A model generated the notes under the pieces. The model ran no database searches, had not been told where the DNA came from, and saw nothing but the letters and a program-made list of their open reading frames with translations. Both the position numbers and the translations under genes were made by a program. A DNA stretch of 41,131 bases from Alphaproteobacteria bacterium (GTDB lineage Bacteria > Pseudomonadota > Alphaproteobacteria > GCA-2731375): contig VGEV01000013.1 in NCBI GenBank assembly GCA_016869175.1, positions 1 through 41,131 of the forward strand, in the 5' to 3' direction. Of the stretch, positions 20,566 to 24,397 are shown in pieces. Within the stretch, counting starts at the first letter, position 1. Every line of letters starts with the position of its first letter.

Positions 20566-21666
20566 CTAGAGCGTCACCAGATGGGCGCGAACCGCGTCTT
20601 CGTCCCATTCCAGGCCGACCCCCGGCCTGTCCGGGATTTCCAGGTGCCCGGACCGCACCGCATAGGGGCGTTGCAGGATCGGCTCCGCCCAATCCTGCCA
20701 TTCCAGCCAGTGCGCGCTCTCGGTGACCCGCATCACGTGCGCCGCCACTTCGGGATAGAGATGCGTCGACATCGGTATCCCCGCAGCGCCCGCGATCGCC
20801 GCCGCCCACAGCCAGCCGGTGACGCCGCCAATGCGCATGAAATCGGGCATCACGAAATCGCAGGCCTGGACTTGCAAGGCCTGCTGTAGGTCCCGCGGGC
20901 CGTAGAAATTCTCGCCGATCTGGATCGGCGTCTTCAGCTCTCTGGCGAGTTGAGCGAAGCCGCGCAAGTCATCATAGACAATGGGCTCCTCGAGCCAGGT
21001 CAGGTCGGCGTCGTCGAGTGCGTGGCAACGGCGCAAGGCCTCGTCGAGGGTCAGGCCCTGATTGAAGTCGACCATCAGGACCACGTCCTCGCCGACCGCC
21101 TCGCGCACCAAGCGCAGCGTGGTGAGATCGTCGGCAAAGCGCTCGCGGCCAAGCCGCAGTTTCAGTCCGGCGAAACCGCCTTCCGCGCGCAGGGCGACCG
21201 CCTCTTCCGCGACTGCCCCGGGCGGTTGCAGCCACAGACCGTTGCTGTTGTAGGACCTGACCGGCCCCAATGTGCCGCCCAGCAGCACACAGAGCGGCAG
21301 ACCCGCCGCCTGGGCCAGCGCATCCCAGGCGGCCATGTCGAGGCCAGCCACGGCGATCTGCGACTGGCCCTGGTAGCCGACAAAATGCAGCGAACGGCGG
21401 GCCAGATCGTAGAATTCAAAGGGCGCCACCCGGCGGCCCTTGAGCAGCGCCGCGAAATCGTGCAGGGCCGGCACCAGATAACGCAGCATTTTCAGCGTAT
21501 AGGGTTCAAGGTAGGCGCGGCCGACGATGCCTTGCTCGGTCTCCAGATCGATCAGGATGAGCGGCCAGTCGGTGAGGGTCGCAATCCGCGCCACCACCGG
21601 TCGGCGCAGCTTCAGCACGACCGGCCGTGCCCGGATCGCGCGCAAGGTCAATGTCGGTAGCGACAT
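20566..21666 (-). CDS. mandelate racemase family enzyme, K-x-R variant
   Basis: 366 residues that match Pseudomonas mandelate racemase with a constant offset of five: metal ligands Asp200, Glu226 and Glu252, Asn202, the Asp275-His302 dyad (PDFMRIGGVTGW; STHLYPEVAAH) and Glu322 (HWLEWQD) all occur at the equivalents of 195, 221, 247, 197, 270/297 and 317. The KxK motif is K169-L-R171, so the second base (Lys166 in the classic enzyme) is Arg. The fold and one-base proton abstraction should survive, but classic two-base racemisation is doubtful; dehydration or epimerisation are alternatives. It lies 49 bases downstream of the emrA-like gene on the same strand and may be cotranscribed. Confidence 0.9.
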   Translation of the reverse strand: MSLPTLTLRAIRARPVVLKLRRPVVARIATLTDWPLILIDLETEQGIVGRAYLEPYTLKMLRYLVPALHDFAALLKGRRVAPFEFYDLARRSLHFVGYQGQSQIAVAGLDMAAWDALAQAAGLPLCVLLGGTLGPVRSYNSNGLWLQPPGAVAEEAVALRAEGGFAGLKLRLGRERFADDLTTLRLVREAVGEDVVLMVDFNQGLTLDEALRRCHALDDADLTWLEEPIVYDDLRGFAQLARELKTPIQIGENFYGPRDLQQALQVQACDFVMPDFMRIGGVTGWLWAAAIAGAAGIPMSTHLYPEVAAHVMRVTESAHWLEWQDWAEPILQRPYAVRSGHLEIPDRPGVGLEWDEDAVRAHLVTL

Positions 21667-21715
21667 CGCTCGGTGTCTCGCCCGTCGCCTGGCTGAACGG
21701 AATGTTCGAGCGCTT

Positions 21716-23026
21716 CTATCCCTGGTCCGCCGGGAACAGGTTGACGAAGCCGTTCGGCAGCCAGCCCTCGATGCCCAGCATCTGCGCCAGTTCGCGCACC
21801 AGCACGCGCAGGCTGCGGTCGCGTTCGCTGTCGATCGATACCGTCACCGTCATCCCGGCGCGCAGCACGGGCAGGCCCTGTTCCGGTTCGACGTACAGCC
21901 TGACCGGCAGGCGTTGCACCACCTTCACCCAATTGCCTGAGGCATTCTGCGGCGGCAGCAGGGCGAACTCGGCGCCGGTCGCCGGGCTCAGGCTCTCCAC
22001 CCGGGCCTTGAACTTGAAGTCCGGATAAGCGTCGGTCACCAGCTCGGCCTTCTGCGCGACCTTCAGAAAGGTCAGCTGGGTCTCCTTCAGGTTCGCCTCG
22101 ATCCAGGTATTGCCGGTTTCGACCATGGTCAGCGCCGGCTTCGCTTCCTCGACATACTCGCCTGCCTGCAGCTTGACGTTGCTGGCAATCCCGTCGGCCG
22201 GCGCGCGCACCACCGTGCGCTCCAGGTCGAGCAGCGCCTTGTCGAGATCGGCCTGTGCCTTCATCACCTTGGGGTGCTGTTCGGTCGGCAGTTCGAGCGA
22301 GCCGCCCAGCTCCACCAGGATCTTGCGGTTGCGTTCGCCCATCATGCGGATGGCGCGGGCCGCCATCTCCGCCTCGTGCTGGCGCTCGTCCAACTTGGAC
22401 TGCGTGGCGGCGCCGCGTTCCAACAGCGTCTGCTGGCGCTGCATCTCGCGCGACACATAGCGGCCGCGCTCCTCGGCCATGCGGGTTTCCTCGAGCCCGC
22501 CGCGGTATTCGGCCCGCTTGGCCTCGATCTCGCTGCGTGCCGCGCGGAGCTGCTGGCGGGCCGCCTCGACGGCGATCTCGAATGGCCGCGGGTTGATGCG
22601 GAACAGCGGCTCGCCCTTGCGCACGGCGGCGTTCTCGGTCACCTCGACGGTGACCACCTTGCCGTCGATCTCCGGCGCGATGGCCAGGATGTTCGACTTC
22701 ACATAGGCGTTCTCGGTGACGATGTAGCGGGCGCTCTTGCCCCACCAGATCGCGCCATAGACGCAGGCGGCGACCGGCAGCACCACCATCAGCACGAAGC
22801 GCAGCAGGCCGCGCACCAGCCGGCCGCGATGGCGGCGCGACACCTGCAACAGGGGCGGCTCGGCCGGGCGGCTGGGCGTCTCGGCGGGTCGGGCCGGCGG
22901 TTCCGCCGGTTCGCTCCGCCGCGCCTGGCCTTGCCCGGCCACCGCGCCAAGCCGCGGCCGTGCATCGCCGCGGTCCTCGGGCAACGGCCGCAGCGGTTCC
23001 GGTTGGCGTTGCGCGCTATCAGCCAT
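21716..23026 (-). CDS. emrA: HlyD/EmrA-type membrane fusion adaptor
   Basis: 436 residues. A Pro/Arg-rich cytoplasmic tail of about 70 residues precedes one membrane anchor (about 74-96, LLRFVLMVVLPVAACVYGAI). A biotinyl-lipoyl-like half (VTENAYVKSNILAIAPEIDG), a long coiled coil of about 150 residues (Arg/Glu-rich, EETRMAEERGRY) and the second half-motif TVVRAPADGIASNVKLQAGEYV follow, then a beta-barrel domain (WIEANLKETQL, LRAGMTVTVSID). It bridges an inner-membrane pump to the outer membrane. The ATG at 23026 overlaps the regulator stop by eight bases (ATGGCTGA). The pump partner EmrB is not here: the next gene is an enolase-superfamily enzyme. Confidence 0.9.
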   Translation of the reverse strand: MADSAQRQPEPLRPLPEDRGDARPRLGAVAGQGQARRSEPAEPPARPAETPSRPAEPPLLQVSRRHRGRLVRGLLRFVLMVVLPVAACVYGAIWWGKSARYIVTENAYVKSNILAIAPEIDGKVVTVEVTENAAVRKGEPLFRINPRPFEIAVEAARQQLRAARSEIEAKRAEYRGGLEETRMAEERGRYVSREMQRQQTLLERGAATQSKLDERQHEAEMAARAIRMMGERNRKILVELGGSLELPTEQHPKVMKAQADLDKALLDLERTVVRAPADGIASNVKLQAGEYVEEAKPALTMVETGNTWIEANLKETQLTFLKVAQKAELVTDAYPDFKFKARVESLSPATGAEFALLPPQNASGNWVKVVQRLPVRLYVEPEQGLPVLRAGMTVTVSIDSERDRSLRVLVRELAQMLGIEGWLPNGFVNLFPADQG

Positions 23027-23522
23027 TGACAACCCTGGGAGGCTGCGGTTCGTCCGCAATCTGTCTTTCGTATTCAGATGCTTCGGTTATATTCTTCTTA
23101 AGGCGCATCAGCATGTCCTTCAGCACCTCGAGTTCCGACGCGCTGAACCCGCGCAAGGCCGCCGCACGCACATCCGCGGCGCGTGCCCGCATGGTCTGCA
23201 TCAGTTCCTCGACCGCACCCGTCAAATAGACGCGTTTCACGCGCCTGTCACGGCTGTCGGACCGGCGTGCAATCCAGCCCTTCTGCTCCAGCCGGTCCAG
23301 CAGCCGTCCCAACGTCGCCCGTTCGATCTCCAGTTCCTCCGACAGCGCGGTTTGCGAGGCGCCCTGGTGGAAGTAAAGGAACGTCATCACCCACCATTGC
23401 GAGCGGGTCAAGCCGAGCGCCCGCATGCGCCGGTCATAGCTGACGCGCATCAGCCGCGCCGCGTCGTGCAGCAGAAACCCGATATTGCGGTCCGCGTTCT
23501 CGATTTGATCGGCCCTGTCCAT
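23019..23522 (-). CDS. MarR family transcriptional regulator
   Basis: 167-residue winged-helix repressor: GFLLHDAARLMRVSYDRR at the N terminus, LTRSQWWVMTFLYFH, recognition region SQTALSEELEIERATLGRLL, DRLEQKGWIARR and the wing DSRDRRVKRVYLT. Members bind small aromatic ligands and release DNA. It heads the unit with the EmrA adaptor (eight-base overlap), the usual emrR-emrA order. Upstream, a 17-base perfect inverted repeat overlaps its predicted -35, implying autorepression. The ATG lies seven bases after the -10, at the predicted +1, with no ribosome site, suggesting a leaderless message. Confidence 0.9.
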   Translation of the reverse strand: MDRADQIENADRNIGFLLHDAARLMRVSYDRRMRALGLTRSQWWVMTFLYFHQGASQTALSEELEIERATLGRLLDRLEQKGWIARRSDSRDRRVKRVYLTGAVEELMQTMRARAADVRAAALRGFSASELEVLKDMLMRLKKNITEASEYERQIADEPQPPRVVNG

Positions 23523-23528
23523 CCAGGT

Positions 23529-23557
23529 AATATAGTTGCCTTGCTGACAGTCAGCAA
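23529..23557 (-). promoter_or_regulatory. marR-emrA promoter, probably leaderless
   Basis: Minus strand: TTGCTG (23557-23552), 17 bases, TATATT (23534-23529), then ACCTGG and the ATG at 23522. Initiation seven bases after the -10 falls on the A of the ATG. Confidence 0.55.
23541..23557. promoter_or_regulatory. candidate MarR operator
   Basis: TTGCTGAC-A-GTCAGCAA, a perfect inverted repeat with 8-base arms and a one-base centre, size typical of MarR sites. It covers the -35 and part of the spacer of the marR promoter, and lies 103 bases before the divergent SDR start, so it could control both. Confidence 0.6.
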
Positions 23558-23659: not shown

Positions 23660-24397
23660 GTGGAGAACGCGCTCAAGCTGGATGGCAAGCGGGTGCTGAT
23701 CACCGGTGCGTCGCGCGGCATCGGGGCGATGGCCGCGCGCTGTGTCGGTGCGCTGGGGGGCGAGGTGGTGCTGGTCGACCTGTTGAGCTGCGCCGCCCTT
23801 CGCGATGAGTTCAATGGGCGGGGCATCAGGGCGCAGAGCTTCCAGGCGGACGTAGCCAAGCGCGCCGAGCTGGAACAAGTGGCCGCGGCGTGCGGTCCGG
23901 TGGCCGCGGCGGTGGCGTGCGCGGGGATCTGTCCGTTCGAGGACTGGCTGAGCGATTCGGGCTGGGACGAGATTTTCCACCAGGTGATGGACGTGAACCT
24001 GTTGGGTCCGATCAACGTCGCGCGCGTCTGGTTGCCGCGGCTGGTCGCCCAGGGCGGCGGCAAGCTGGTGATGGTGGGCTCCATCGCCGGGCGGATGGGT
24101 GGTACCTCGCCCATCGTGCAGCCGCACTACGTCGCCTCCAAGGGCGGGGTGCATGCGTTGGTCTATTGGCTGGCGCAGCGCTACGCGCCCAAGGGCGTAC
24201 GCATCAATGGCGTGGCGCCGGGGCCGGTGGAGACCGAAATGACCGCGACCACGCCCTATGACACGGCCCGGTTCCCGCTGGGCCGCCGTGCCAAGCCCGA
24301 GGAGATCGCCTGGCCCATCGCCTTCCTCTGCGGCAGCGGCGCCGATTTCATGTCGGGCGCCATCCTGGACGTGAACGGCGGCCTGTTCGTCGGTTAG
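23660..24397 (+). CDS. SDR family oxidoreductase
   Basis: 245-residue classical SDR with TGASRGIG, catalytic Ser in VGSIAG, Tyr-Lys in HYVASKGGVHA and the end FMSGAILDVNGGLFVG. The usual NNAG is CAG (VACAGICPFED). GTG at 23660 is preferred because GGGGGC and AGGGA precede it and the protein begins just before the first beta strand (LDGKRVLITGA); an in-frame GTG at 23570 has no ribosome site. It is divergent from the marR-like gene, separated by the operator, so it may belong to the same regulon and could act on the inducer. Substrate unknown. Confidence 0.87.
   Translation: MENALKLDGKRVLITGASRGIGAMAARCVGALGGEVVLVDLLSCAALRDEFNGRGIRAQSFQADVAKRAELEQVAAACGPVAAAVACAGICPFEDWLSDSGWDEIFHQVMDVNLLGPINVARVWLPRLVAQGGGKLVMVGSIAGRMGGTSPIVQPHYVASKGGVHALVYWLAQRYAPKGVRINGVAPGPVETEMTATTPYDTARFPLGRRAKPEEIAWPIAFLCGSGADFMSGAILDVNGGLFVG

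Follow-up and report, generated by a model that had tools for sequence, protein, structure and literature searches.

In Escherichia coli, the gene for the MarR-type repressor EmrR (MprA) heads an operon that also encodes an EmrA-type adaptor (EmrR-EmrAB). The same order is present in a 41,131 nt stretch of alphaproteobacterial DNA (assembly GCA_016869175.1, contig VGEV01000013.1, positions 1 to 41,131), in the following designated the window. In contrast to E. coli, no emrB gene is located beside emrA in the window, and the encoded MarR protein falls far below the cut-off of the EmrR/MprA model NF008122 (29.8 bits vs. 157 bits). A second group of related systems comprises repressors translated from leaderless mRNAs. 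In the Rhodobacter sphaeroides acuR-acuI-dddL operon, the primary transcript was mapped to the AUG of acuR, the -35 and -10 elements TTGATT and TATTAT were found just upstream, and an inverted-repeat operator over the promoter was confirmed by mutations (PMC3017554). As in the window, the repressor gene is the first of its operon, the (in the window predicted) operator covers the promoter, and similar regions were reported from other bacteria. However, AcuR is a TetR family protein that acts in acrylate/DMSP catabolism and was proven at the bench (PMC3017554), whereas the window encodes a MarR protein in an efflux context. For AcuR, the leaderless message was reported to give little repressor and the downstream gene more product (PMC3017554), and the same was suggested for OhrR (PMC3469484). 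Lambda cI and Tn1721 TetR are cited as further leaderless repressors (PMC3017554). OhrR of Chromobacterium violaceum shares with the window the MarR family and two features that are predicted for the window, a transcript start that overlaps the start codon and self-repression via an inverted repeat in the promoter. It differs in that it belongs to the redox-sensing branch beside ohrA (PMC3469484); the window protein reaches 58.7 bits compared to the 200-bit cut-off of NF052638. CrtR of Corynebacterium glutamicum is MarR-type, negatively autoregulated, divergent to its target operon and reported to have a leaderless message. In contrast, it originates from a species with 33% leaderless transcripts, the crtR promoter is not readily recognised, and the target concerns carotenoids (PMC5401885).

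In Sinorhizobium meliloti, all 171 reported leaderless messages begin with AUG, which is part of the definition used in that paper (PMC3616915), and for Caulobacter 375 leaderless genes, 9.6% of its genes, were reported (PMC4117421). This means, the leaderless route is open in Alphaproteobacteria. Judging by titles and abstract openings of the literature on leaderless emrR/emrA, SlyA or MarR/operator, a marR-emrA operon like that of the window was not recognised.

The locus in the window (Table 1) is probably best explained as a self-repressed marR-emrA efflux operon with a combined promoter-operator-start block and a leaderless marR message. The repressor is assigned to the MarR family by PF01047 (58.7 bits, cut-off 24.6) and PF12802 (58 bits, cut-off 27). 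SlyA (NF002926) is the top match among the curated models, though below its cut-off (83.1 vs. 120 bits), and among PDB chains PA3341 and SlyA come closest. The downstream gene does not reach the cut-off for a true EmrA/EmrK adaptor, but this model is still its best match and it is named EmrA-like. With its ATG at 23026-23024 it begins within the last codons of marR (stop codon 23021-23019), so that coupled translation of emrA is likely. The other side of marR is occupied by a divergent SDR gene, beside which mtnA is located. Between the upstream stop (-150) and +60 (codon 20), marR has no in-frame ATG, GTG or TTG other than the ATG at 23522, and homology to related proteins starts a few residues past this codon. 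A Shine-Dalgarno run of at least 3 bases was not found before this ATG. The window marR therefore displays the combination by which leaderless mRNAs are recognised in sequence, i.e. an AUG start without a Shine-Dalgarno site.

Table 1. Features of the marR-emrA region (positions in the window)
Feature	Position	Strand	Basis
marR-type repressor gene, 167 aa, ATG start	23019..23522	minus	ORF; Pfam MarR; ortholog in 15/15 genomes of the order
marR start codon ATG	23520..23522	minus	sole in-frame start; 6 nt past TATATT; +1 predicted on its A or within 0-2 nt
-10 element TATATT	23529..23534	minus	same element 6-8 nt before ATG in L106, L103, L109, L110
-35 element TTGCTG	23552..23557	minus	17 nt before -10; TTGC or TTGG here in 32 other loci (best 80 of 151)
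17-bp perfect palindrome, predicted MarR operator	23541..23557		dyad centre common to 15 TTGC-type homologues; sole perfect copy in the genome
emrA-like membrane-fusion gene	21716..23026	minus	TIGR00998, 229.8 bits (cut-off 390.8); adjoins marR in 77/80 homologue loci (best 80 of 151)
divergent SDR gene, GTG start	23660..24397	plus	Pfam adh_short; SDR and/or mtnA divergent from marR in order relatives

The arrangement described by the sequence-only reading can be read directly from the DNA: On the minus strand, TTGCTG is followed by a 17-nt spacer (23551-23535), TATATT, ACCTGG (23528-23523) and the ATG. The palindrome TTGCTGACAGTCAGCAA has perfect 8+8 arms about one base and covers the -35 element and part of the spacer. 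Hence, the predicted operator dyad overlaps the promoter of marR itself, the sequence signature of an autoregulated repressor. Promoter, predicted operator and start codon appear to be packed into about 40 bases, and the primary 5' end is predicted to lie 0-2 nt from the marR start. Consistent with an unstructured start as reported for leaderless mRNAs of Caulobacter (PMC4117421), all 200 shuffled sequences fold at least as well as the first 50 nt of the predicted marR mRNA (z +2.0); the predicted 5' ends of the homologous loci L106 and L104 fold ordinarily (z +0.6 and +0.1). By consensus the -35 element is weak, with three of six bases matching TTGACA, and a consensus scan of both strands between 23480 and 23720 (at least 4/6 per hexamer) does not pick up the marR promoter. 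In 400 kb sampled from the same genome, 29 perfect 8+1+8 palindromes were counted, about one per 14 kb, and the window has six; because of this density, a palindrome in the 137-bp gap between marR and the SDR gene is by our own arithmetic a ~1% event. Taken alone, the layout of the window exceeds chance only modestly. A genome search for the operator with up to 3 mismatches yielded 47 sites (14 for the reversed control), and only that of the window was perfect. At none of the operator-like sites listed was any of the five strong emrB genes of this genome located. The next-best match (C141, one mismatch) appears by frame to be situated within a histidine-kinase coding region. In 441 kb of the same genome, TTG-16/17/18-TANNNT ending 5-8 nt upstream was found at 0 of 238 ATG candidates of other ORFs, and TANNNT alone at gaps of 6-7 nt at three of them. 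A general excess of leaderless-type promoters was thus not seen in this sample, a null result that is weak either way, because crude longest-ORF calls are poor in G+C-rich DNA (window 68.5%).

As leaderlessness had been proposed from the window only, homologues were used as a test. Named genomes were scanned and yielded 151 relatives, the best 80 of which were fetched; L086 was dropped as it has no in-frame start, and with the window 80 loci were obtained. In each locus, the nearest start upstream of the conserved region was taken. The promoter-start geometry, TTG-N20-TA 6-8 nt before the start, is present in 32 of the 79 usable homologues. Of the 80 loci including the window, 20 have a gap of 6 nt, 10 a gap of 7 nt and three a gap of 8 nt; at any other gap between 0 and 84 nt, the motif occurs in at most five. 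Among representatives at 85% identity, 17 of 42 clusters, the window counted, have the geometry compared to 0.24 expected from dinucleotide shuffles (gaps 5-8). Of 354 further ORFs in the same loci with a length of 200 aa or more, only one has it. In 29 of the 80 loci, the best site of a promoter scan blind to this rule had its +1 between -2 and 0 relative to the start. Examples are TTGGCA-17-TATATT-CCTTGG-ATG in L106 and TTGCTT-17-TATTAT-TCCCGC-ATG in L104. The bases between -10 and start vary freely, but the distance stays at 6-8 nt in the 32 other loci. Outside the window's order, the geometry was found in 31 of 66 loci, in records titled Alpha-, Beta- and Gammaproteobacteria (best 80 of 151). 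The cultured type strain Thalassobaculum litoreum DSM 18839 (L110) has the same geometry.

Start codon and Shine-Dalgarno site differ between the two types of loci (best 80 of 151; kinship ignored). ATG is the start in 32 of 33 loci with the geometry, the exception being L147 with GTG, vs. 26 of 47 others (Fisher 2e-5). By clusters, the ratio is 17/17 vs. 14/25 (p 0.001; kinship ignored). A Shine-Dalgarno site of at least 4 bases precedes one of the 33 starts vs. 13 of 47 (p 0.006), a contrast that is not significant by clusters (p 0.07). Homologues without the geometry often begin with TTG or GTG; in several of them (L100, L117, L125, L140), a TTG start is preceded by a leader with a strong Shine-Dalgarno site. 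Burkholderiales-type and SAR116-type homologues (L100, L117, L125, L140, L149; L139, L150-L152, L154-L156, L158, L159) begin with TTG behind a leader, and those of the Burkholderiales type mostly have a strong Shine-Dalgarno sequence (AAGGAGG, AGGAGG). On the protein tree, the geometry requires 12 changes over all loci, eight of them forced by starred branches. The tree-corrected test of geometry against ATG yielded eight pairs, two for and none against (median p 0.5), too few for power.

The dyad recurs as well. When all positions were tried in the 15 other TTGC loci, the best centre was located 8 bases into the -35/spacer, which is exactly that of the window. The observed pairing was matched by 2 of 2000 column permutations for the 15 loci and by 0 of 2000 for nine representatives. 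In the 17 TTGG loci, the same centre is only second best (8 of 2000). At dyad pair 5/11, nine of 16 TTGC loci have T-A and the window has G-C; both bases of the pair differ, and the symmetry is retained. The 29-base promoter block of the window agrees with a majority consensus compiled by hand at 23 bases. Geometry and dyad support two of the predictions made from the window, leaderless marR translation and the palindrome as self-operator, and leaderless translation and self-repression of the marR-emrA operon are well supported by comparison.

From the sequence, the gene families, the gene order and the recurrence of geometry and dyad, the following mechanism can be proposed. RNA polymerase would bind TTGCTG-17-TATATT and start on the A of the marR ATG or at most 2 bases away from it. 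Because of this start, the marR message would carry neither a 5' leader nor a ribosome site and would be read by the leaderless route. A MarR dimer on the palindrome, over the -35 element and the upstream part of the spacer, would exclude the polymerase, and marR and emrA would consequently be repressed. A ligand might free MarR and open the operon, whereupon emrA would be translated by coupling to marR. It would suit such a switch if the leaderless message gave little repressor and the coupled gene downstream more product.

The marR ortholog is present in all 15 genomes of the window's order (14 relatives and the window), and the protein tree groups them in a branch of 15 rows (96/95). A related operator block occurs in all 14 relatives, and so does emrA wherever its flank is covered. 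However, 13 of them, counting the unscorable L086, do not show the geometry: A TATATT-like -10 near the start is mostly missing. L084 passes a loose geometry test, but with a poor -10 (TAACCC). In most relatives, the nearest start lies well downstream of the operator; in L081, L083, L084, L088 and L099, an in-frame ATG, which may be the true start, is found 8-14 nt past it. From this lack and the 12 trait changes it follows that leaderlessness appears labile and is represented in the window's lineage by one genome; within the order, the predicted leaderless state is lineage-specific. The operator block of the relatives differs from that of the window at several bases, though MarR has hardly changed in its DNA-reading region. 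A block near ATTAATATGGCTTATTGTATGCTAGRCAAC upstream of marR is almost constant in most of the 14 relatives (e.g. L008, L013) and altered in the window. This ATTAATATGGCTTATTGTATGCTAGRCAAC-like block may hold promoters in both directions in the relatives.

In addition to its own operon, the MarR dimer might control the divergent SDR-mtnA operon from the same operator, an extension of the preferred explanation that does not compete with it and that we consider possible but somewhat doubtful. The short intergenic gap fits this proposal, and SDR and/or mtnA are divergent to marR in most order relatives in which that side is covered. Yet no SDR promoter can be recognised in the window, where the A+T-rich block of the relatives, a possible SDR -10, is missing. 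Furthermore, most homologues from outside the order do not have the divergent arrangement.

A true competitor is that marR is self-repressed via the operator, but that most of its mRNA is initiated at a more distant upstream site and has a leader devoid of a Shine-Dalgarno site, with TATATT as nothing but an A+T-rich operator flank. The distant starts in most of the 14 order relatives and the weak -35 element would agree with this, as would Caulobacter, in which 75.4% of the genes were reported to be without a Shine-Dalgarno site (PMC4117421). Nevertheless, this reading is unlikely: It does not account for a constant -10-to-start distance across freely varying bases in 32 other loci, and a scan of both strands between 23480 and 23720 (at least 4/6 per hexamer) recognised no other promoter. 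That the palindrome belongs to another regulator or arose by chance and is not bound by the window MarR would fit the density of perfect palindromes and the altered operator block beside a nearly unchanged DNA-reading region, but is very improbable in view of the dyad centre recurring in homologues and the sole perfect site of the genome lying before marR.

The preferred reading, a self-repressed operon with a leaderless marR message, concerns a known but uncommon way to run a repressor, the layout of which is often common to related genes. Leaderless autoregulated repressors have already been described (lambda cI, AcuR, OhrR, CrtR); the window adds a marR-emrA branch, and with it a clade of three proteobacterial classes joins this short list. 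A leaderless reading made from one bare sequence thereby becomes testable by comparison: Across homologues, the distance between promoter and start tends to vary together with the start codon and the Shine-Dalgarno site, and the MarR set provides a ready contrast between leaderless and leadered initiation. It would be a long shot to propose that in the MarR-EmrA clade of Alpha-, Beta- and Gammaproteobacteria selection keeps the ~40-bp promoter-operator-start block fused, and that leaderless initiation is the only route to the repressor, though not to the efflux adaptor. If true, repressor supply would track ribosome state, and drugs that target the ribosome could move the efflux switch with no need to bind MarR.

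Some minor observations concern the surroundings. In L002 (~1440-1520; G000:C141), a histidine-kinase-like frame is interrupted by a single TAG behind ...NAVKFTP, past which recognisable kinase sequence continues; a one-mismatch operator copy is located just beyond. An emrB-like gene was found downstream in only 28 of the 80 homologue loci (best 80 of 151; flanks up to 2.5 kb). In the window (20566-23026 region) and in L116, emrA is followed by an enolase-superfamily (MR/MLE) gene, and in L103 and L106 by a phosphodiesterase-type gene.
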